34,200 nucleotides of DNA from Ectocarpus siliculosus (taxonomy: Eukaryota > Sar > Phaeophyceae > Ectocarpales > Ectocarpaceae): positions 1,719,607-1,753,806 of the forward strand of contig FN649745.1 of NCBI GenBank assembly GCA_000310025.1, in the 5' to 3' direction. The notes under the pieces are model-generated. The model ran no database searches. It was not told the DNA's origin and saw only the letters and a program-made list of their open reading frames with translations. The position numbers were made by a program, and so were the translations under genes. Below, piece by piece: positions 3,203 through 28,627 of this stretch (positions within the stretch are counted from its first letter, which is position 1; the number at the start of each line of letters is the position of its first letter).

Positions 3203-6200
3203 ATGGCAGCTCGAAGACGAACCACGCTAGCGGCAGTGTCGAGCGCATCGCTCAACTCCCGCGGGTCCATGGGCACGACGTCGTCGGGACGCTCCTCCCT
3301 GGCGTCATCCAAGCAGCCGTCCTCGCGATTCAGCATTTCTACCAGCTCGGCGGCGGCAAGGTCTACCATGGGCGGCGGCGCAGGGGGCGGAGGGCGCACT
3401 AGCATGGGAGCACGCCCCAGCATGGGCACGTCTCGTCCGAGCATGGGCACCTCGCGGCCGAGCATGGGTTCCTCCCGGCAGAGCGCGGGAAGGCCCAGCA
3501 TGTCTACCGCCGGGGACCGCAAGTCTGTCGGAGTTCGGCGAACCACCTCGTTCGGGACCGGCGGCGGCAGCAGGTCGGACCAGAGGCCGTTGATGGACAA
3601 GGCCCACCTCAACGCCTCCCTGCACAAGCTGGCGGCCTACCTGACCGACCACGGCTACGATCAGCCCATCAACAGCAAGAGCCTGACGCGACCGAGCGGC
3701 AGGGACTTCAACAACATCACGGGGTTCTTGTTCAGGCAGCTTGATCCGAACTACAGGGTGAGAGAAAGATGTGCTTTCGTGACGTGGTGGGACTCTAACT
3801 TCGAGACGTTTTTACATACACAACGGCCGCAGTCAGCAGTGGCGTGGTTGTTGTTGGGACTGTTGAGCAACAGCAGTGCTGCAGAAAGTTACAGTGTGGT
3901 TTGGCCAACCCCACGGCGTGCTGCTGCGATGACACTGCTGTGTGCTGTCCTCGACGGTTCACAACAACTGTGGGGTACCGTCTACATAACGTAACAGGTC
4001 AAATTGCCAAATTGCCTCTGCAGCGGTTCCTGTAGGCAGCTGTTTTCACAATGCAGAACGGCGGCGGGAGTTCGTGCCGAACAAAGAAAGCACCCCTTCG
4101 AGCACGACTGCTCTGTGCATGTGTTGCTACCGGTTTTTGTCGGTGCATGGTGCACTGCTGCTGTACAGTACTGCTGCTGTACAGTACTGCTGAACAAGCA
4201 ACGTGTTCGTCCTTGTCAGATGCCTCCTGTACGCGCTGCCTGAGACCCGAAGTATTTGACAAGAGATGCATGTACCGACTGCTGTGCCAGCAATTGCGGC
4301 TCTTCTTACCGTATTGCTGTAGGCTGCGTGAGATATCACATACCCTGGGCCGATTTGGAAAGATCGATTGCCCTGCAGTAACAGCGACAGTGATGGTGCC
4401 AACAACGGTGGCTTTGGATTAATCTCGTCGAGGGCTTTCCGAGGAAACGCACCGTTTGATTTTTTATTTTTGATGTGTGATGTTTGATGTTTGATGTTGG
4501 CATTCTCTCCGCCGTGGAGGTATTCAAGCTTTGAAGATTGGTCGAGGGTGTGTGGTGTCTTACGCAGCCTACTGTGCGATATGTTCGTGATCGGTGTGCT
4601 TCGTGCGGCGGTTTTGTTTGCCGACATAGCAGCGCACTACTCTGGAATAGAGTGCAACGCCACGACCTTGTTCAAACACGGCGGCAGCAGTTTTGTAACC
4701 ATGGCGTCTTTACGTGCCGGACATGATGCTGCGTCTATCGCGTTGGTCGCGCGCACCGCCGCACAACGGTCCTGCACTGCTGTTGAGAGAGGCGAAAGCA
4801 CCCCAAAAGTATCCACAACGGTCCTCGATGCGGGGACAGGGGGGGCACTCATTTTCGCGGTTACACGTTATATCTAGTCCCCTACGCGTTACGTGAAGCT
4901 GTGGTTGACTCCGCCCCCCCTTCCCAGAGCGGTTGCTGCAGACTCTGCTGACGTGGTTTTGTATGCGGCCAGATGTTGTTCTCGTTTGCTACAACTTGTT
5001 GTGACGTCCTTCTTGCTTCGCTGCTGGTTGTCTTGCTGTGCGTTCGTCGCCGCTGTGGCGTTACTGTACGGGGCGCGACACGATGATGTGGCTCAGCCCT
5101 CCGGGAGGTTCGAAGACGACGTTGTTCCCTTCCTCAAGATGGTCCGGTACCCGTTCACCATCTCCAAGTCCTCGCTCGCCGCCGTCGGAGCTCCGCAGAC
5201 TTGGCCTAAGGTTGGTTGGGGAAGAGGGGGGGGGGGGGGGGGGCAACCCATTGGAAATACCCCGGGCCGTTGTTATGGGGAAATTTTTCCATTTGGAATC
5301 CGGGGGATTGGGAAAAAATGTTCCCCCCCCCCCCAAAAATAGGGGGTCTGCGTACTGGGCAGCAAGCAGACAGCACCAAAGCGCTTTGTCAGCTCGTCCT
5401 CGCCTCACAGACCCCTGTTTGCCATCTAACCGATAGTGCTGTACACTCCACTACTGTGATCTTCTCGGAGCCAAGTTTGGGCAGCTAGAGTGCAGTGAGT
5501 ATGCAATGATATGAAAGCAAATTCACGATTCCCAATTTGGAATTCCAACCAATTCCAGTTTGGAATTCATGAGGAATTCCCACCCGGATCGTCCAGCAAT
5601 TCCAAATTGGAATTCCTATTTTACCAAGCGTGGTGAACACACACTGCACCACAGCTCCCCAAACTTGGCTCGAAGAGGCTCACAGCAATGCTCTACGCGG
5701 CCTCGAAGGTTTGAATGCAAACGGGTCTCTGTGAGGCGAGTACTGAGTGCCAAAGCGCTTTTGTGAGTTTTTCCAACGAAGCACGCAGAACTCCTGCGGC
5801 CTCATGGGGGTTTGGATGTAAAAGGCGTAATATCGAGATTCCAAATCGGAAAATTTCTCCATAACAACTGGCCTCACTAACGGCCGCCACATTCCATTTT
5901 TATTGGTGAGGGTCCGTTTCTATTGGGGAAGCTGTTTGTTGTTGGCGTAACGGGGAACTTGGTCGTCCTCGTGTAGAGAAGCCACAAGGTTGACACGCGC
6001 ACGGCCTGTGTCGGTGGTGGTGATGGTGGTTAGGTGATGGGTGCCATCTCGTGGATAGTGGACGCCCTCCTGTACGACGAGACCATCGCCGTGGCGGAGG
6101 AGGAGCAGCGCGCGAGGGAGCGGGAGGCCACGCCCGAGGAGAGGGAGCGGGACAAGGAGGACGGCGTCGATGACCAGGTGAGGTGACGTGGCCTCGGTGG

Positions 6201-16408: not shown

Positions 16409-17886
16409 TCAGTAGTAGGGGTCCTTGTAGGTGGTCTTCTTGGTCACCGTGTGCTCCCAGTACCGGTCCCCGTCCTCGTCGTACTTCGTCTCCCACCACC
16501 CCTTGCCCTCCTCCTTCTTCTCGTCCTTTTCGTCGTCGTCCTTCTTCTTGGGGTGGGGGGCGACGGCGAAAGGGTACAGCGCGCCACCGGGTACCGGCGA
16601 AGGCGTGAAGACCGGGCCTCCGGGGTAGCCCATGGGGGACGGGTTGACCGTCCCAACGGGAGAGACGAGGCCTCCGCCGCAGCCGTAGGTCCACTCGCCT
16701 GTGATGCTGTGCTGCCTGTTTTTTTTTTGTCATGTTCGGTGCGGGAGGGAGAAGGTTAGCTATGTTGCAAGCGGGAGGTTGGGCGGGGGGGGCAAGCGAG
16801 CGTTGTCCTTCCTTCCTATCACTGGACTGTTACGTACTTCTAGCTAAGCATGCTGCTTGTTGACGCGAAGACACCAGTTTCGAGACAAAGTTCACACCTA
16901 CATCGGCTACATCTACGAGCAAATATGTGCACATGCATATGACATCTCTGCAGATTGATTAACATGCAGGTGGCGTAATATATCACACACCCTGCATCGA
17001 TTTTCAAAGGCCGATTACTCCACGGCAAAGAAAGAGCGGGACGGTGCCGAAAATGGCGGTCTCGTCGAGATATTTCCGAACATGTATCGTTTGATTTATT
17101 TGTACATCTTCTTCGTCGTGGAGAAATGAACATTTGAAAATCTGCGTAGGTGATAATCCACAGCGCAGAATAAATTCTGGCACCTACAGCAGCATGTACG
17201 GGTTTCAGCAGCGAGCGGTGCTCCTACGAAGTACCTTCACAAAGTACGTCGAGTGGAACGGGTTTGCGACATTGGCCATCACCAAACACCAACCAAACCA
17301 GCACAAACACTCAGGTACCAAGTCTACCCATCGAACGCTCCTTATCGCTGTGCAATTCGACACGCAACCAGTAACCGCCTGCCGTGAGCAAATCGCAAAT
17401 CGCAACGTGGAATACCCCGAGGTGTAAATACCCCGAAGCCACTCACCAGTACGTCCTGCCGTACGCGTCAGTGAGCATGTCCCATCTTCCCTCGTCTTTC
17501 TTTTCCATCTTGTCAGAGCTCTGCGCGCTCTTGTCCGCACCTGGTGTGGGAGGAAGGGTTGAGCAGGAACAACCGCAGCACTACTGTAGTTAGACGTCAA
17601 CATGAACGAACGCAGGAAGGCTCCAACATGCATCCCAGACCACAAACAAAGGCTCGACAAACTTGCATGCACGCAATATATGTGTTCCCTACAAAGTGGT
17701 GCGCCGTTGCTGCAGACAAGCGCGGACAGTCGGGAGTGTGCAAAGCAAGGCAAAGCCATAGGTTGAAGCGAAACGCACGTACGGCTGCCTGGCTGGGGGT
17801 TGCTTACCATTCTTGGCGGCCTTCTTGGCCTCCTTGCGGCGCCTGTTGTTGGCCAGCACTGCGAATCCGTTCGAAAAGAAAGACAT
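16409..17886 (-). CDS. Small protein with two WW-like motifs, gene A
   Basis: Three exons: 17886-17808, 17540-17447 and 16715-16409 (159 aa, stop TGA). I do not recognise the family by name. The N terminus is MSFF followed by a Lys/Arg-rich segment. WW-like motif 1 covers residues 46-66 (W, then TDAYGRTYW, then QHSITGEW). A Gly/Pro-rich linker (NPSPMGYPGGPVF and so on) and a Lys/Glu-rich stretch follow. Motif 2 covers residues 131-157 (GWWETKYDEDGDRYWEH, then a T-rich end, DPYY at the C terminus). This matches the WW pattern W..GxxYYxNHxTxxTxWxxP, except that the second Trp is Tyr and Asn/His is shifted to x-His. WW domains usually bind proline-rich peptides, so an adaptor role is possible but unproven. 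Introns are in phases 1 and 2. Gene B is its inverted, head-to-head paralogue. Confidence 0.85.
16716..17446 (-). other. Intron 2 of WW-like gene A
   Basis: A 731-nt intron with donor TACTG|GTGAGT and acceptor AACAG|GCAGCAC. It splits the Trp codon (TG|G) of motif 1. Its length is close to the 754 nt of the matching intron in gene B. I see no other feature in it. Confidence 0.85.
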
Positions 17887-18439
17887 GCTTTCGCTGGTGG
17901 TGCCTGTTGTTGTTGCAGCTGCTGGGGTGGTGGTGGTGGTGGTGTTGCACTGCCAAGCTGCTGTGTGCTTGGTGTATGCTTTGTATGAGTGCTGGTTGGG
18001 CCTGGTGCTTGGTGTGTTTCCGTGTGCGTGCGGTCGGATGAGGTTGTGAGACCGAGAGGGGAGAGAGGAGAGAGGGCGCAACCGATCTTCGGACCGGAAA
18101 ACCTGGACGCATCCGGAAAGAACGGTCCTCACATTCCATGGCTCTGCATCGCGCAACGGAACTATCCGAGAAACCTTCTCTCGCCACAAAGGAACGGTTC
18201 GCGAGCGCTTTCGTGCGTTGAGTTCTCCCATCTTGTCAAAAAAAAAAATCCACGTCGCGCCGGCGTACCACGCCCACACCTTCACATAACCCACATCGGC
18301 AAGACGCAACGCACCCAACCGCAACAGAGCAAAGCCTCGCGAAACTCCGCAAGCAGTGTACGACGCACGTGCTCAGCACACTTCGCCACCCCGGCCGTCG
18401 CAGCGCAGCAGCACAGCACTCAGTAACGGGTGAGACAGC
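17887..18439. promoter_or_regulatory. Bidirectional promoter region between WW-like genes A and B
   Basis: The two start codons face away from each other across 553 bp. The region contains a (GGT)n run at about 17927-17943 close to the gene A start and a GAGAG-rich patch at 18055-18078. A poly-A run at 18239-18249 is also visible. I cannot name binding sites or a TATA box. Co-expression of A and B is likely given the arrangement, but that is inference. Confidence 0.55.
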
Positions 18440-19893
18440 ATGTCGTTCTTCACGAAAGGACTCGCGGGCATCTTCAACAACGGAAAGGCTCGCAAGAAAG
18501 GTGAGAGCGGGGATCGACGACTTGAAGTGCGTCGGCGATTGCTGTGCATATCTCTGGCGTTGCTGCTGCCCCTCCCTGCTGCTGCTTCAGGCTCATTCGC
18601 GCGGTTGGAGCCTCTTGCTGCTTGCTGTGGTTGGCTATATGTGTGCTCTAAGTTAGTTGCTCCACACGGCCGTTGCCTCAAAATTCCAAAATTCGTTGAC
18701 CCGCGTTGTCTCCGTCCTCCGTCGCTCTCTCGCCACCCCCTGCGCGCTCTCACACACAGACGAAGGGAAGGGCTCTGACAAGAAGAAGGACAAGAAGGAC
18801 GAAGGGAGCTGGGAGAAGCTCACGGACGTCTACGGCCGCACGTACTGGTGAGAGACGACGAGACACAGCAGCAGCGATGCGAAAGTGGCGGTTTACCTTC
18901 GGTCCCCTCTCTGGGTAGCAGCATTTCTAGCCTCGGAATTCCGAGCTTTTTTCTCACCCACTGCTTGCTGCCGCTGTGCTACTGTAGACTATAGCAGTAC
19001 TGCTACTGCTGTTTATAGGACTGCCTCAACCGGATGGTTAGTACTTCGAAGTACATGTAGATGTTCTTGCTGGCCTTCCGCTCGAATAAAAGACCCAAGT
19101 ACTACTTCCACAGAATCTGCCCGCCACTTTGCCAGTTCAACAACGACAAGGTTTGCGGGAGAATCCCGCGTTCAACAATATATTGCGTTTCTGGCCCGGA
19201 GCACGGCCCAACGTCAACTCTATTCGGACCGGTTCAATGCGGGCACATCAACAACATATACTAACGACTCACGAGCGTTTATCCCTGGAAAACGACCGAG
19301 GTTAGACAAATGATCTACAGGTCTGGAACAACAAGCAAGTTGGTCGGGTGTTTCGCCTTGGCTTGCCCACAACGATGCGATAGTATAGGCCCTTTGATGC
19401 CCTTCCTGCCCAATCCGACACAAAAGATTTTGATTGTTTCCGTCTTCAAACACAGTTTTTTGCCGAGCTGCTCGCGAAGTTGAGCTTCATGGGGTATGTG
19501 CAAGTTGAAGCCGGCCACTCGATGTGGAGTATTTAACCACCCCCCCCCTTTTCCTCCCCCTTGTTTCCACCCTATTTCCGGCACTTTCCTTAAACCAACA
19601 GGCAGCACAGCAAGACAGGCGAGTGGCACTTCGGCTACGGTGGCGGCTTTGTCCCTCCCGTTGGGACGGTCAACCCGTCCCCCATGGGCTACCCGGGCGG
19701 CCCGGTCTTCACGCCTTCGCCGGTGCCCGGCGGCACACTCTTCCCTGTCGCTGTCGCTGGCCCCCCCGGCAAGAAGAAGGAGAAGAAGGAGAAGGGCAAG
19801 GGGTGGTGGGAGACGAAGTACGACGAGGAAGGGGACCGGTACTGGGAGCACACGGTGACCAAGAAGACCACCTACAAGGACCCCTACTACTGA
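18440..19893 (+). CDS. Small protein with two WW-like motifs, gene B
   Basis: Three exons: 18440-18500, 18760-18847 and 19602-19893 (146 aa, stop TGA). It starts MSFFTKGLAGIF, followed by a Lys-rich region (KKKDKKDEG). WW-like motif 1 starts at W38 (SWEKLTDVYGRTYW, then QHSKTGEW). The Gly/Pro-rich linker is nearly identical to gene A. Motif 2 covers residues 118-144 and ends DPYY at the C terminus. Intron positions and phases (1, then 2 inside the Trp50 codon) equal those of genes A and C. From GGCAAGGGG to the stop codon, 97 nt differ from gene A by a single base, while exon 1 is clearly divergent. The function is unknown; small, charged, probably soluble proteins with protein-binding motifs are suggested. 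No signal peptide or membrane segment is evident. Confidence 0.85.
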
Positions 19894-22800
19894 ACACGAA
19901 GAAGACGAGTAGAAAGAGAACGAACAAACAAGAGGTTTGGCTGTATATAAGCGTGCAGGCTGTCCATGGTGGAGTGGAGTGGGACTCGTGGTCGGATAAT
20001 ACGCAAGTGTAGAGTTTCTTCTCGAGGATGCCCTCGATAAAACCCGAAAGTTCTATGGCAGGATGTTTCGGGATAACTATATAAAAAGAAGACGTCTTGG
20101 GGTAATATATGTTGCAGAGGCCCAGTTGATGGTAGCAAAGGCAGAGCTACTACTGTAGCTCCTTGTAATCTACGCCCCTTTGCGACCGCTCGGCGCCATT
20201 CTGTCACACAAACCAGTCCCCTTGCGTGTGGCATATGTATGTATATGTTGAGTGCCTTTGTTTTTTTTGTGTAGTGTGGCGAAAACATGGGGAATGAGTT
20301 CTACGATAGGTTGCGACGACAGCAAGCAGTGCATTTTCACGCGGGGGGTAACGAGTGCGGGGGTTGAGTTAATGTGGGGATTGTTCGGGTTCATGCGATT
20401 GTGCAGAGGACAGAATGACGGGAACTTTTTCCTGTGCGTAGTTCGATTTTAGAGTCTGTTTGTGCCTTGTTCGGATCGTCCTTGTTTAATGTTGGACTAA
20501 GATTCCGTTGTAGTTAGTTGTGTCTTTAACACTTCGTATGTCTTTTAATGGTTTTGGCGAGTCAGACTACACCAATACTTCGGTGGGGTATTGGTACGGT
20601 GAGATGATTACGTAGGGTAAGAGTTCACACAACACACAAACAAGAAAGTATTTAAGGATGCATGCGCCCATTTTGTGTCGGCGAGTGCTATAGTATAGGG
20701 AGGGCTCTCATGTTTCGAGTGGGCTTGGCGTGGGGGTCTGAGGTGCTGAACAGGAACCACGTGTGAAGGGTGCACGCGTTTACGTATTTGGGATTGGCGG
20801 AAGGGTTGGGACGAACGTAGGAAATGGGAGCGCCGTAAGGCTGCACTCATTCGGGAGGAAAACTGGCGCATTTTTTACGATCATCCTTGGAAAAGGGGGA
20901 AGCAGAAGGCTGTACTCGTTTCGGGAATGCACTGTTTTTGGTTAGGGAGGAGGACTGGGTGTAAGCTTGTGGGCACAAACTCCGTGTACATGCGATGTGT
21001 AGGCAGAAGTGCTTTGAAGCAGGAGAAAAAAAAGAAAACACCTTTGTACATAAAACAACGACGAGCTTATATTGTTAGGAGATTTTTTCTCCCCCCCTGT
21101 TTTTGAGAGCATCGAAACGGGCGGCGGCATCCTTTTGCTAAAGCGACGGCATGCCTTGAATTGTCGTCGAAGGACAAAGTGGCGTAGTGCCGTGTTCTCG
21201 TGGGAAAAACGCTGCTGCCGCTACACACCGTCGTCGTCGCCAAGCGCTTCCGTGTAACTTTCTTGTGGCCATCTTCGCCTCGTGTGTGTGCAGGCGTGCG
21301 GCGCATCTCTCTCAACCTTCTCGCCAGAGAGAGCGATCGATGCCTGCCGTCATCAGACAACATGAAGCCTCTTTGTGGCCGTTGCGCCAATGTTTCCCAA
21401 GCGGGGCGGGTCTGAGACGCGGAATCTTCCCAACGACCGAACCGCGTTCCACATCTCTTATGCAGCCCCGCTGTTTGTTTTTTTAGTGTTGGGTGCACAG
21501 CCGGGGACTACCAGTAACCCCGCACAAAACACGGCGAAGAGCTTGAAGGACCCGAACCAACCACTGGATGCGGAGGGTTCATTCGTCAGAAACCTGCCCG
21601 GAATCAACGGGAATGTATTTAATTTAGCTGACCTCGCACGCGTGGTACCAACGAACACACACCGTCTGCGTCTGTCTTGTCTGCCTGTCTTCTAGACACC
21701 CTCTCCTCATGAGGTTGGGCGTTCTGTTTTCATAGTCTTGCCAGTTCTTCCTGGTGTAACGGATGCTGGCGTGTGCCACAACTCGTCAACTGCCTTTCGA
21801 CGGCAGCGCCTACTGTGCGACTGAGCGTGTTCGCTGCACACGTTGGAGTGTAGACGGGCATGAATGGTACGTACGTTTTCGTCTCCACAAACGCCGAGAA
21901 TGGAAAACACACCACCCACATGCCCACCACTACAGTTCGTCCTGGTCCACACTTTCCCAAAACGGAGAGCCAAGCTTCGGCCAAACCCTTCCAAAATGCC
22001 GTGCCCCCTCCTGTTTCTGATTTTCGTTGTTGTACGTTAGTTATCGCGTCCTCTCTTAACGTCAAATTAGCTTGGCACACCGGTACGATCGCGACCCATA
22101 CCACATCGCGCCACCACCATCACAACTACATACCATCATCACCGCACCGTGCCAGCGCTCACAACGTGGGCACACAAAGAAAGCCGGCTAGACAATCAAG
22201 AAGAGAAAACAACAACCATACGACGGCAAGCAATCATCCAGGAATCGCCACACCATCAATCACCTCCTCCCTCCGGCACATACATACATTCAACAACAGC
22301 GTGCGCCCTAATTTTTCACTCGTCTTCCCTCTGATACAACTTCGGAAGCTCGTCTCGTGCGACAAAATAGACTTGGTTTCTTGTGCTATTTACTTGCTTG
22401 TTGACCTCAAAGCGACAAGCCTCTGGTCTGATTCACCAACAACGAACTAGAGCCACGGGCTGCGTGCGAGTTACCCCCCTCGTTCCCCTCCACAATTACA
22501 CCGCGTCAACGGGTTGAAGATTATCACCCGTCGCCCCATCTCTTCTCAGATCCAACACAGCAACCACGCCGCACGCCTGCAGCTATTCTAGCTAGCCGAC
22601 CTCCGCGCCAAAGAACGGGCGGGCGTGTTAAGCGACGGGGGGTAGGTTCTCCTTTTCGCAAGGCTCCGCTGAGCTGCGAACAAGCAACAATACCCCCAAA
22701 AACGAAGACGGATAGCGCAGGACTCACGCAATGTGTATAGCCACCGCCTAGCCTCTGTATCTCTGTGCTGGCCTATTGGAGCCAGCATGGCCCTCTGCTG

Positions 22801-24300
22801 ACCCTAATATAGCCTTCTTTCGTCCCTGCTGACTCAATCTCTTTGCCCCCGAAATCAACCACAACAAAGCACGACGATTTCCCTGGCAGAAAGTAAGTGG
22901 TACTCAATAAACTTCCTGGGGTGTGTGTTCGTCTTTTGGTTTTTCTCTGGCTGTCAGCACACTACACACCGGAAAGGAATCGGTTGAGCCAAATACGGCG
23001 AAAAGGGTTACAGAAAGATGAACAAGCACAGCAGTCCGGGGCAAGCACAAAAAATAAAATCGTCCTTCAGTTTCACGCGGGAACACCACCACCTGAATTC
23101 GGCAAATCTTGACATCCCATCTCAAGGCAAAACCCCTACTTCGCGTCCTCATTTATATTTTCAAATAAATGGACAGAAGGACAACATGACACTTCACCCG
23201 AAACCGCCAGTGCAGGTAAATGTAGGGACCATGGTACCACCGCGTGCCTGCACCGTAAAATACGCCCGAAACCACTGAAACTGCCGGAAAGACGGTGTCC
23301 CTCGCGTTGCGCAGATAAGGGGATTCGCAAGGGCAGCTGTCGTTCACTTGTACCCCCCCCCCCCCTTCCCACCTCCAACCAACATTAAACAGCTTGTGAG
23401 GAGGGGGGAAATAAATACCCACGCATAAAACAAATATGCATCTGTCTTTTGAATCAGTAAAGCAGCTCTTGAACCTTAAAAAGCCACCCAGCGCCAGCTC
23501 TACTTCTGTGCACACAGGGCGAGGGCTTGCCGTACTGTCTGTCTGTCCCGAAACACATGCTGCAAGGCACTCAAACACGGAAACGAGAGACGATGGACCA
23601 TACAATAAAAAACACAAAAAAACGAAACCATACAAACAAATACACCTCATATTAAACACAACATGCGCCTGTCGGACCTCGTGACACCGGGGTCCCGTTC
23701 GAGTTCCCCCCGCTTGAAACAGTGGTATAAAAACACGCCGCTTTGTTCTGTTGGCCTTTGCACACACTCCACCCTCTCAACACATCCTTCCGAGCAAGAA
23801 AAAAAAAAAGGCAGCAAGCCGTTACCAGTCAGTCAACCTCGGAAGGCCAGGGGAGAAACGATACACACATACACACACCGGTGTGGCACACGCGGAACTT
23901 GAAGCGACACAGCCGCCAATCGTGCCGTAAGCCGGAACCGCGGTAGGGTGTTGCACATCCTAAATACCCGCATTTCATTTCTGTCGGGCCGCTTCCCGTG
24001 TGCTGAAAAAACAAATTCACCAATCAGAAAAACCTCGCTTTGTTTGCGGGTGGCCACGATAGACCTTATCCTCCTCGCCCCCCCCCGGTACTGTGCTGCC
24101 ACAATCAACAATGACCACTCGAGCCCGCCCAAAACCATCTCACAAGGGTGCGCGGCTTACGCCAACGCACCTCTTCGCCAGCAACGCCGTGTCTTTGCGG
24201 TCTCCCTTCGGTCGCCGCCGCCGCCGCCGCAATTTATCAGCAAGGGAGCCAGTCCCCCCCCCCCCGCATTCGCGGGACCGCTTCAGCGCCGACGGCGGCG
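19894..24300. other. Intergenic region, WW-like genes B to C
   Basis: About 4.4 kb lies between convergent genes and should hold their 3' UTRs. Frames at 21187-21695 and 21860-22450 are open but have no repeat, domain or convincing splice-site support. Poly-C runs (23346-23357, 24078-24087, 24256-24265) and A-rich stretches are present. I see nothing else I can support. Confidence 0.5.
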
Positions 24301-27300
24301 TCAGTAGTAGGGGTCGGTCTTGGAGGTCTCTCCGGTGACCGAGTGCTGCCAGAACTTCCCGCCGTCCCTGGTGTACAACTTCTCCCACACCCCCGCGGCG
24401 ATCTTCTTCTTTTCCGCCGCCTTCTTCTTCTTCTCCTCCTCCTCCTTCTTCTTCTTCGCCTTGAGGGCCTCGGCGTGCTGCGGAGTATTTTTTTATTTTT
24501 GGCGAGACGGGACAACGCAGGCCAAAGCGACGTGTTTGGTTTGCGTGAACAACCGAGTGCCGCTCTTGTAGCCGGGTTTGAAAAAAGCACGTTCGAGTGA
24601 CACAAGAATTGGAGGAGACATACAGAAGGATGAAAGGGAAGGAAACCGAGATGCAGAAGGACTCGTCGCGGACCCCCTGAGCCTCAGCGCTTCAAGCAAC
24701 GGGAGATACAAGCACGGGCTTGCACCGTGATCATGAGCAGCAGCGCGCGCAATTAGCGCAAAGCCACGAGCACAAAACGGTAATAGCGGACGAAAAATCC
24801 ACACTCGTTGCCCGATCCCCTCCAGCTTAGCACAAGGTATTGGGGTGCTTCTGGCTGGGATATCTCTCTCTCTTCTCTCTGTCTCTCTCTTTCTTTCAGT
24901 AGCCTTCGCAGGCTATGTAGTTCGTCTTAAGTAAACATGTTGGATAAAGTATGCAATTGGGGAGTTGGGCTAGGGTCTGGGGTCTGCGCACCCCCTTCCT
25001 GTGCTATTTATTTGCTCTCTAAAAAATATAGTTTCTCGCGAAGGCGGTCCCTCTCTCTCTCTCTGCACCTCTCTTTCTCTATACACTCCGGAGTATATTT
25101 TTCTCGCCCTCCCTTCTCTCTCTCCCCCTCCCCCCCCCCCCCCCCCCCCCGCGCGCTCTCTCTTTCTCACCTGCCGCTTGATGTACTCCGGCACCTGGAC
25201 CGGCACGGGCGACGCCGGCATAGCGTTCCAGGGCGCTGCCGGGTACATGGCCACCGGCGACATCCCGTACGGCACCGGCGAGTGGCCGTAGTACTGCCGG
25301 GGCACCGGCGATATCCCGTACTGGGGCTGCTGCATGTACGGTTGCGGCGGCGGCACCACGGCCACCGGAGCAAGGGCGGGGACAGGGGCGGCGGCGGCGG
25401 CGGCGGCGGCCGCCGGCTTCTTGTTGTCATCGTCGTCATCGTCCGAGTCGAAGCCCTTCGCCGCTAGGCCGGTGTTGTAGCCCTGCTGGTGGAGGGCATA
25501 GCTGGTACCGTAGGTAACCTGCCCGGTTTGGCGGTGCTGCCTGTTGATGGTTTGAAAGGGGGAGGGGGGGAGCGCGGGGGGGGGGGTTAGCGAATCTCGG
25601 GGGGAAGGAGAGTCGTCTGATGACGGTTGCTGGAAACGAACGTCTTGTTCTTCTGGCTCGTGTTTCAAGTTTTTTGTACCGATGTACCGCTCTCGTTGCA
25701 AAGGTTGTGCTCCAAAACGCGCTCTGAGCAGTCGTCGTCGTTGTTGGAACAATCTCTGTCTACACGCGTCCACAAACAGTTTCTTTTGAGTTGCATACGT
25801 ATACGTAACGTTAAAGTCCGGGCGTTCTCATCGGTAGGGTGCACGAGTCTCGAGTTCCACGATTCGGGCATGGATGGAAGGGGAGGACAGGGAGGGGGGG
25901 TGTACTCATAGTCGTGCATGCCGTAGTCGTTTGACCATTGACCTCGCATCCCTACAAAGCCGGGACGGAGCACGCCGGGTTCTCACCGGACCAGGCTCTC
26001 ACATCACCAAGCGCGAAGCGCCGTGAGGTATTTGGCGAGTCGCATGAAGGGTGAGCTGCATCCTGCTAAGGGTGTTCGGCATCTTGTGCTTACTTCCTTG
26101 CGTACGGATGACAGCTACGTATGACTTAATGTATTTTCTGGTGCTTTCACTTCCAGAGACAGTTGTAAGCACTGTGTAACTGCCTCGAGGAAGCTTGACC
26201 ATTTTAACACAACGTCGTGCGATCATCCCCCGTTGCGCGGAGTGAGGTTTCTCGACCCCGCACAACATGATCTACTCGACCACCATTATGGTTACCGCCA
26301 AAAAAAAAAACCGAGGTAAAAAAAAAAACGGTAACCTGGTTGCCGAGTTCACGAAGTGAATTGGCTTCTTTACAACGTCGTTGCCAAGCGACGAAAACCC
26401 AATCCCGATGGCAAACACCGAGTGGGGGGCTTGTTTTACAACGTCGTTGCCAAGCGACGAAAACCCAACCCCGATGGCAAACATCGGGGAGGACAGGGAG
26501 GGGGGGGGTTAGAGGACACGGGCGTGCAACAACGGCGCGAGTCAGCACAGCCGAGAAGCAATGGTTGGGCGTGCCTCGGGGAGACGAAGAGCGAAGGCCC
26601 TCCGTTTTGTGTGAACCAGCCACGAGCCTCGCGTCGCACGTTCGTTACAACTAGGCTAAAAGGCCGTGCGGCAAACACGCGGAAATGTTGAGGGCAAAAC
26701 CCAGTTTGGTAAATGACTAGCGCCCGAGACAGACGTGTGGGGACCAAAAATGAAAGCTACAGGGTCGGGTGTGTGCGTGAAACGATGGACGGTTCATGCG
26801 CCATAAACCTAAGTTGCAGTGGCAGTTACAAATGAACATCTCGCATCGACATTTGACCGTGCTTGAATTCGTCGGCATTCACCTTAGCTCTCGCGTCTAT
26901 CGCTTCTCTATCCACTGCCTTTCGGTCAAAATATTGAAGAGCTTCGTGCTCTTTGCTCTTTTCGGTCTGTCCATGTATGCCCACATGTAGATCATGTCTC
27001 GCGATCTTCTCCATGTCGACGTACAAACTCTGCCGTTATTTTCTTGGGGAGACATCACAAAAGAAGGCACCACTGCTGCTGTGCCGCCTTGTCTTGGAGA
27101 GGAAGGAAGGTAAAAAAAGGGGCGTGTGGCAGCTGGTCCCTCGTGGCCATGAGAGAACGGAAGGGGGCTATTTCTACGTGTTCCGTAGTTGCCGAGGGCG
27201 CCTTTCCTTCCTGAATGTGTTTGTCAAGCCCCCCACCGTCCACTGATCGGGGCTTCATGATGAAGCCTGACGATAACGGAAAAACCACACGCAGGCTCCC

Positions 27301-28627
27301 AACTTCGCCCGCCGCCGGGAAACAAATGGGATGGAATGGGCGGGTGCGAATCGCGCCCTCGTTGGAACGAACAAAACGTTACGAGCTGCGACACAACAAG
27401 CTTGTGCACACGCACTGCTGAGACGCAGCAGTCAGTCGTTCGGTGGGTTCGATAACTTCGTTTCTGTTTCTCCTCCTCAACTTCCTCCGTGGAGTCATGT
27501 CAAATAATTGTTAACCAATTAATTGATGAGGGCGGGGGGGAACACCTACACTTCCATTTGACGGGTGTTTTGTGGAACGCCAGTCATCCCCCGACACCAA
27601 CATTGTACTAAATAATCAACAGACGCTCTCGTCTAATATTTATCTCTCGTGTATTGTTTGTTCCACACGTCGCCTAGGGCGCCGTTTCACAAAAATCTCT
27701 ACCACTGTTTATAGCGCATTGCAGAAGAAGCAACAGTCCCCTTGTCTGCACTGCCTGGTCTCCCTTCGTACATACAGACAACATAGTAGGGGTGCTGGCG
27801 TGGTCGTTGTTGTTGTTGTTGTCTTTGCGGGGAGAAAAAAAGCTCCGCATCCTTGTCCCACAGCCATTGCAAAAAACTGGTGAGGCTAGTCGTGCAGTGC
27901 AGCGATAAGACATCGCGCGTCATCAAGCGCTCTGTAACTCTGCGGGCGGACGCAAAAACGACGAAACGGCAACGAACAACGAAAACTCTTGCACACAGGT
28001 CCGTTGCATACACCATCCTCATAGAGCGGAAAATAATTTATTGTTCGTGAACACCTGCACGAAGTTGTAGGAGTACAGAGTAGGTGACGGCCATGTAAGG
28101 GCCAGAGATCGGAAAGCGCGCACACACTAAACCAGAGAAAGGACCGCGCTCCAAGTGGCGTCTGCTGCGATACATAGTCCGCCACTTTACACACGGCCTG
28201 ACACAGGGGGATAGCTGCCTGTGGGTATTGTAGACTGGTGTGATACCCTGAGGCTCCACATTTTCACTCACAAAAAAAATACAAGCATGCGCAACCTCAC
28301 CAACATAGGCGCCCGTAAGGATCCGTCCTCTGCTCCCACTGCTGCTCCGTTTCCTCTTCATCCTCTGACGATTCCTCTGCTTTCTTGGTCTCCTCCTTCT
28401 TGGTCTCTGTGACATGGGGAAAAAGGGTGGGGCGTGGTGCAAGATTATGTCTCGTGCAAACATCCTCTCGCTTCGTTCGCACGAAAAGAAATCCAAATCT
28501 ACCTGCCTGCTGTTATCTGTCTGGTGAAAGCTTGAAGTTGGAAAAAAAGGCCAGCCGCGCCCCCACCTTTCTTGTCGGCCTTGGGCTCGAACGAAGGCCG
28601 GTTCCTCCTCTTGATGAACTTAGACAT
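24301..28627 (-). CDS. Longer protein with two WW-like motifs, gene C
   Basis: Four exons: 28627-28567, 28406-28301, 25540-25171 and 24477-24301 (237 aa, stop TGA). It starts MSKFIKRRNRPSF, followed by a Lys/Glu-rich acidic stretch. WW-like motif 1 starts at W44 (WEQRTDPYGRLCW, then QHRQTGQ). A long middle region has an Asp run, nine Ala in a row and Pro/Tyr/Gln-rich sequence (PPPQPYMQQPQYG, several SPVP). A Lys/Glu helix then precedes motif 2 at residues 209-235 (VWEKLYTRDGGKFWQHSV, ending DPYY). The first two introns match genes A and B in position and phase (1, then 2 splitting the Trp56 codon); the third (phase 0) is extra. Motif 2 has the same length as in A and B, but Lys replaces the second Trp. 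The model is supported by three phase-consistent junctions. The function is unknown. Confidence 0.82.
24478..25170 (-). other. Intron 3 of WW-like gene C
   Basis: A GT-AG intron (CAG|GTGAGA to CCGCAG|CACGCC) found only in this family member. It holds CT-rich microsatellites (24865-24896, 25051-25080) and a poly-C run (about 25128-25150). No gene is seen in it. Confidence 0.75.
25901..26211 (+). mobile_element. 311-bp dispersed repeat, copy 2
   Basis: It starts TGTACTCATAGTCGTGCATG and ends CATTTTAACACA. It is the near-identical inverse of 11713-12023. The left flank GAGGACAGGGAGGGGGG is shared in similar form with the copy near 34002 and recurs at 26489, so the true element may extend further left. 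It lies inside the large intron of WW-like gene C. Confidence 0.8.
26371..26488. repeat. 66-bp tandem repeat
   Basis: TACAACGTCGTTGCCAAGCG and the following CGAAAACCCAA(T/C)CCCGATGG begin at 26371 and again at 26437. A more degenerate third unit precedes them. The period of 66 is a multiple of three, and one minus-strand frame stays open through both copies (repeating GFSSLGNDVVK). It is more likely intronic repeat DNA or a degraded fragment than a gene. Confidence 0.75.
27804..27822. repeat. (GTT)n microsatellite
   Basis: About five GTT units lie within intron 2 of WW-like gene C. Confidence 0.75.

Follow-up and report, generated by a model that had tools for sequence, protein, structure and literature searches.

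Three neighbouring paralogous genes of Ectocarpus siliculosus encode small proteins with tandem, divergent WW-like domains

Gene models and paralogy

A 34,200-nt stretch of the genome of the brown alga Ectocarpus siliculosus (contig FN649745.1, positions 1,719,607 to 1,753,806 of the forward strand; hereafter "the window") carries three genes, here called A, B and C, each of which encodes two copies of a short motif resembling the WW domain (Table 1). An earlier note on this DNA, made from the sequence alone, had described three genes with six motif copies, and the predicted spliced models that we rebuilt from the DNA letters (GT-AG introns, open frames) agree with it: each gene has two copies, and none of the three models contains an internal stop after splicing. 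Genes A and B are arranged head to head with their start codons 553 bp apart, and the interval between them (17887-18439) is a candidate bidirectional promoter. Gene C is located about 4.4 kb beyond gene B.

Two introns are common to the three genes. Intron 1, which the earlier note had not pointed out, is in phase 1 and interrupts codon 27 in A and codon 21 in B and C. Intron 2 is in phase 2 and lies within the Trp codon (TG/G) of motif 1 in all three genes, as the earlier note had stated. Protein B is 75% and protein C 42% identical to protein A. The shared introns together with these identities identify A, B and C as paralogs, which were duplicated when the two-domain, two-intron form already existed. 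What they form is a local family of genes that makes use of a known component; the component itself is not of a new kind. Intron 2 of gene C also contains a 52-nt unit present twice (26369-26486; 66 bp apart, 96% identical), perhaps a fragment of a mobile element.

Table 1. Genes A, B and C and their WW-like motif copies (positions in the window; aa, amino acids)
Feature	Coordinates	Strand	Exons or splitting intron	Length	Remarks and basis
Gene A	17886-16409	minus	exons 17886-17808, 17540-17447, 16715-16409	159 aa	open frame, GT-AG introns, phases 1 and 2
Gene B	18440-19893	plus	exons 18440-18500, 18760-18847, 19602-19893	146 aa	GT-AG introns, open frame
Gene C	28627-24301	minus	exons 28627-28567, 28406-28301, 25540-25171, 24477-24301	237 aa	extra phase-0 intron in linker
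A motif 1, WW-like	16676-17487	minus	split in Trp codon by intron 17446-16716		
B motif 1, WW-like	18807-19641	plus	split in Trp codon by intron 18848-19601		
C motif 1, WW-like	25501-28341	minus	split in Trp codon by intron 28300-25541		
A motif 2, WW-like	16412-16498	minus			ends DPYY; profile searches, Pfam
B motif 2, WW-like	19804-19890	plus			ends DPYY; profile searches, Pfam, structure model
C motif 2, WW-like	24304-24390	minus			ends DPYY; profile search, structure model

The six motif copies

We refer to the copies of motif 1 as A1, B1 and C1 and to those of motif 2 as A2, B2 and C2, and count residues from the motif Gly (G+n). The expression G-x-x-[YFC]-W-x-H-x-x-T fits all six copies in the residue table. 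It occurs three times in the unspliced six-frame translation of the window, each time in a motif-2 copy, compared with four occurrences in 200 first-order simulated windows (~0.02 per window); the three motif-1 copies are present only after splicing. A search of the window with a profile built from the six copies revealed no seventh one: the nine real pieces score between 15.5 and 56.8 bits, and the next match scores 9.9. The three copies of motif 2 align without gaps, with 29 residues to the C terminus in each case, and all three proteins end in DPYY, which corroborates what had been claimed of both their spacing and their ends.

The first Trp is kept in all copies, with the Gly eight residues further on. 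Position G+3 is aromatic (Tyr or Phe) in five of the six copies and Cys in C1; Trp at G+4, where the reference domains have Phe, and Thr at G+9 are invariant, and G+6 is His. The residue at G+5 is Gln or Glu in all six copies, compared with Val or Leu in WWP1, WWOX and SMURF1, and G+7 is Ser, Thr or Arg. In type-1 WW domains, G+5 and G+7 line the second pocket, which accommodates the Tyr of PPxY. Every motif-2 copy has Asp-Pro at G+16/17, the Pro at G+17 being the core Pro of the domain.

Relationship to the WW domain

Profile searches of PDB sequences (matches listed to E 10) link both motifs to WW proteins. The motif-2 profile gave 19 matches, of which 17 are WW proteins, including WWP1 (E=1e-4), WWP2 (1.6e-3), STXBP4 (4.4e-3) and Su(dx) (5.7e-3); an antibody chain (E 0.58) and a viral glycoprotein (E 0.88) make up the rest. 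All 16 matches of the motif-1 profile are WW proteins (best E 0.0059), among them CC45, which we take to be a designed WW domain. WW proteins likewise account for 9/9 matches of the six-copy profile and for 10/11 matches of protein B searched alone (best E 0.01). The reversed motif-2 profile retrieved nothing from the PDB, and the reversed motif-1 profile a single non-WW protein, cytochrome c oxidase subunit 2, at E 7.7. In Pfam, WW (PF00397, gathering cut-off 26.9 bits) is the top family for protein A (13.0 bits, E 0.11) and protein B (14.7 bits, E 0.033), and it is matched by three of the six motifs in isolation (best E 0.016; one at 15.6 bits). At the sequence level, motif 2 is thus related to WW over its length; for motif 1 a relationship is shown in part, namely in the first half, its second half being only spaced like a WW domain.

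For C motif 2 (36 aa), AlphaFold predicts two strands and a two-residue third one (predicted local distance difference test, pLDDT, 71.8; predicted template modelling score, pTM, 0.42). Among the best 50 of the 311 rows returned by Foldseek for this model there are 34 WW-domain titles, nine entries for Pin1, KIBRA or MAGI2, presumably WW-containing as well, and seven others. The model thus weakly resembles WW, and a three-stranded WW fold appears compatible with the prediction for motif 2.

Several results weigh against assigning these domains to WW. All tested Pfam WW scores lie under the gathering cut-off. For protein B, the phage family GP46 (13.9 bits) comes near the score of WW; the whole of protein C gives ten weak Pfam matches, WW not among them, the best being MFAP1 (E 0.016); and one isolated motif of the six matches BNR/Asp-box (E 0.017). 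For motif 1 the best E-value adds up three domains found in the same chain, and a chain with a single domain reaches 0.026 at best; for the six-copy profile the best E-value (9.3e-4) likewise sums two domains. Of the 16 motif-1 matches, 12 are limited to profile columns 7-19 of 34, i.e. to the first half. As regards individual residues, the core Pro is missing in all three motif-1 copies, and the position of the second Trp (G+14) is occupied by Y, F, Y, Y, Y and K in A1, B1, C1, A2, B2 and C2, respectively. The statement that the motif lacks the usual second Trp accordingly holds for the aligned position in all six copies and needs qualification in A1 and B1, which have a Trp two residues ahead of it, 20 residues past the first Trp. 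The structural predictions are also at variance: the model of the C terminus of protein B (45 aa, three-sequence alignment) has two strands (mean pLDDT 64.4, pTM 0.30), no WW title is found among the best 50 of 121 Foldseek rows for B motif 2, and the E-values for the C model (0.72-2.6 in the best 50 of 311) are all non-significant. Of the three-stranded antiparallel sheet of WW domains, the C model shows two strands and a short third one, and the B model two strands.

Because the Pfam scores stay under the cut-off and the second Trp is absent from its position, we class the domains as WW-like and divergent from canonical WW. The resemblance claimed in the earlier note is upheld by the profiles of motif 2 (whole domain) and motif 1 (mostly its first half), with reversed controls that retrieved no WW protein, and weakly by one of the two structure models; the other model speaks against it.

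The three other Pfam families were dropped as assignments. The MFAP1 match in C spans residues 7-86, i.e. the charged N terminus and motif 1, and the GP46 matches in A and B (E 3.1 and 0.053) overlap motif 2; both are weak and under the cut-off. BNR/Asp-box was rejected as a match of one copy in six.

Comparison with known WW systems

The motif copies can be aligned without gaps with the WW domains of WWP1 and WWOX, and most of their unusual residues have precedents in the domains of WWP1, WWOX or SMURF1. The WWP1/WWP2 domain (2op7, 6rss), which we take to be the fourth WW domain and which belongs to a large HECT ligase, aligns gap-free from the first Trp to Asp-Pro, and has Phe at the second-Trp position followed by K-D-P; it differs in having Asp-His at G+6/G+7, where the motifs described here have His-Ser/Thr/Arg, and Phe instead of Trp at G+4. 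WWOX, a tandem WW protein with an oxidoreductase domain after WW2, has in this second domain (1wmv) Tyr at the second-Trp position and the same T-T-Y-x-D-P as A2 and B2, whereas its strand-2 residues are different. The domains of WWP1 (Phe) and WWOX (Tyr) would thus also be set apart by the second Trp; both the His and Phe/Tyr at the second-Trp position have precedents among solved WW domains. YAP and Prp40 likewise contain two WW domains joined by a linker, but with the canonical second Trp and with larger effector regions, whereas the proteins analysed here possess little beyond the charged segments and the Pro/Gly linker. SMURF1 WW1 (2laz, 2lb0) shares His at G+6 and T-G at G+9/G+10 (YFLHTQTG); it has Phe at G+4, where Trp is found here, and Leu at G+5, and we assign W262, a residue named in PMC4021816, as its second Trp. 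Judging from these alignments, what is particular to the Ectocarpus domains, relative to the reference domains compared, is the combination of residues together with the Trp at G+4, the Gln/Glu at G+5 and the DPYY in which all three proteins end.

Divergence of genes A and B

The inverted paralogs A and B are 91% identical in exon 3 (16409-16715 and 19602-19893), which includes two near-identical patches; the stretch of high identity ends a few bases at most from the stop codon. Global alignment of the noncoding regions, with 20 shuffles per comparison, gave identities that all lie within the shuffle range: 0.655 for intron 1 (shuffles: mean 0.588, maximum 0.668), 0.615 for intron 2 (mean 0.590, maximum 0.625) and 0.519 for the 3' flank (mean 0.579, maximum 0.654). 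The synonymous divergence (dS) falls from 0.96 in exons 1-2 to 0.27 in the linker part of exon 3 and to 0 in motif 2, where the 29 codons of A and B exhibit one amino acid difference and no synonymous one. In tests on 145 of the 146 aligned codons (the split Trp codon being excluded), codons for the same amino acid differ in 0/28 cases in motif 2 and 19/82 elsewhere (Fisher p 0.003), and in 9/81 cases in exon 3 as against 10/29 in exons 1-2 (p 0.008). Gene conversion between the inverted copies would explain the similarity of exon 3 and motif 2, as would strong constraint on the codons.

Search for relatives and genomic context

A tblastn search of phage genomes with protein B gave no match, which, for a phage collection, is uninformative about algae and other eukaryotes. 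Queries of viral contigs with protein B, with the alignment of the full-length proteins and with that of motif 2 brought up no confirmed relative, a result that says nothing on eukaryotic distribution, and bacterial and archaeal genome contigs gave none either, which again bears neither on algae nor on other eukaryotes. Proteins B and C had chance-level matches only in NCBIfam, which covers bacteria and archaea. Among the papers retrieved on WW domains in Ectocarpus, brown algae, stramenopiles, kelp and diatoms, none has a title or abstract opening that describes such a family; WW-bearing calpains are treated in PMC10762896.

Elsewhere in the window, Pfam analysis (E 0.01) of 40 of the 142 stop-to-stop frames of at least 100 aa identified two matches, both to Ndc80_HEC. 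They correspond to two partial exons on the plus strand that belong to a gene for the kinetochore protein Ndc80/HEC (PF03801; 3161-3991, E 5.5e-17, and 4878-5339, E 3e-10). The presence of this gene and of spliceosomal introns indicates that the genes are eukaryotic.

Proposed function and alternative explanations

We consider it probable (roughly 0.65) that the three local paralogs encode small tandem WW-like adaptors, divergent members of the WW superfamily with weakened or changed ligand specificity; our confidence is lowered because most matches of motif 1 cover half of the motif. The predicted proteins, small and highly charged, consist of a Lys/Glu-rich segment followed by a WW-like domain, twice over, with a Pro/Gly-rich linker in between. 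Motif 2 retains the first Trp, the Gly, aromatic residues in strand 2 and, following strand 3, the Asp-Pro (the Tyr of strand 3 is present in A and B and replaced by Lys in C); it would most likely bind a ligand that contains proline, its specificity being weakened or changed. As motif 1 has neither the second Trp nor the core Pro, it would more likely stabilize motif 2 or pack against it than bind on its own. We infer the fold, the adaptor role, the ligand class and this division of labour. A bolder version, which we regard as unlikely, posits an adaptor family specific to the lineage whose WW-like domains have all had their binding face rebuilt, with Trp at G+4, Gln/Glu at G+5, Ser/Thr/Arg at G+7 and either an aromatic residue or Lys in place of the second Trp; the proteins would have DPYY as a conserved end and recognize a ligand class outside the known WW groups.

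According to PMC4301871, WW domains need the first Trp for stability, and the second one is located in the xP pocket; in type-1 domains, the Tyr of PPxY is taken up by the second pocket. The loss of the second Trp from all six copies, together with Gln/Glu at G+5 where WWP1, WWOX and SMURF1 have Val or Leu, would fit a non-binding role, which we regard as a serious, if clearly less probable, rival to the adaptor hypothesis: the copies would be orphan WW-derived domains that no longer bind a ligand and retain enough of the sheet to fold or pair, and the proteins would act via their Lys/Glu-rich segments, for instance on nucleic acid, membranes or acidic partners. Charged segments indeed precede both domains, and WWOX WW2, with Tyr for the second Trp, has been proposed to be an orphan, chaperone-like module that stabilizes its neighbour (PMC6104168). 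The near-identity of A2 and B2 over 29 codons argues to the contrary, as it suggests that motif 2 is constrained or was recently converted. Moreover, a WW domain can still bind when its second Trp is substituted, and the WWP1 and WWP2 domains have Phe at this position.

The earlier note also suggested adaptors that could bind each other's linkers, a proposal that lacks support in the sequences. PPxY, LPxY, PPLP and PPR are absent from all three proteins, which offer Ser/Thr-Pro sites (four in A, three in B and four in C), SPVP (one, one and three, respectively) and one PPxxY in protein C. With such a set of sites mutual linker binding would be unsupported unless it depended on phosphorylation. 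A precedent raises the odds of that variant: SMURF1 WW1 (2LAZ, 2LB0), which is matched by the six-copy and motif-1 profiles and has the same H-x-x-T-G segment, binds the phosphorylated Smad1 linker via Arg243, Thr245, Gln247, Gln249 and Tyr251, as stated in PMC4021816. When the copies are aligned by hand, the position of the phosphate-contacting Arg243 (G-5) is occupied by Arg in C1, by Lys in A2 and B2, and by Leu in A1, B1 and C2. The result is mixed overall, as A2 and B2, despite their Lys, are acidic at the neighbouring contact positions G-3, G-1 and G+1, which is unfavourable for phosphate. Binding of the WW-like domains to the linkers of sister proteins, perhaps only when the Ser/Thr-Pro sites are phosphorylated, therefore seems to us quite improbable. 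Least credible, and in our opinion very improbable indeed, is an unrelated Trp/aromatic repeat (e.g. Asp-box or a new fold) that became WW-like by convergence, for although one motif in six matches BNR/Asp-box and the B model is unlike WW, the two motifs searched separately retrieve almost only WW proteins and the reversed profiles retrieve none.

Should the tandem WW-like domains bind ligands despite lacking the second Trp, WW recognition would span a wider range of sequences than is known at present, and the Pfam cut-off would be missing WW adaptors in a eukaryotic lineage that has received little study. If they do not, A, B and C would represent a small local gene family with a common domain.

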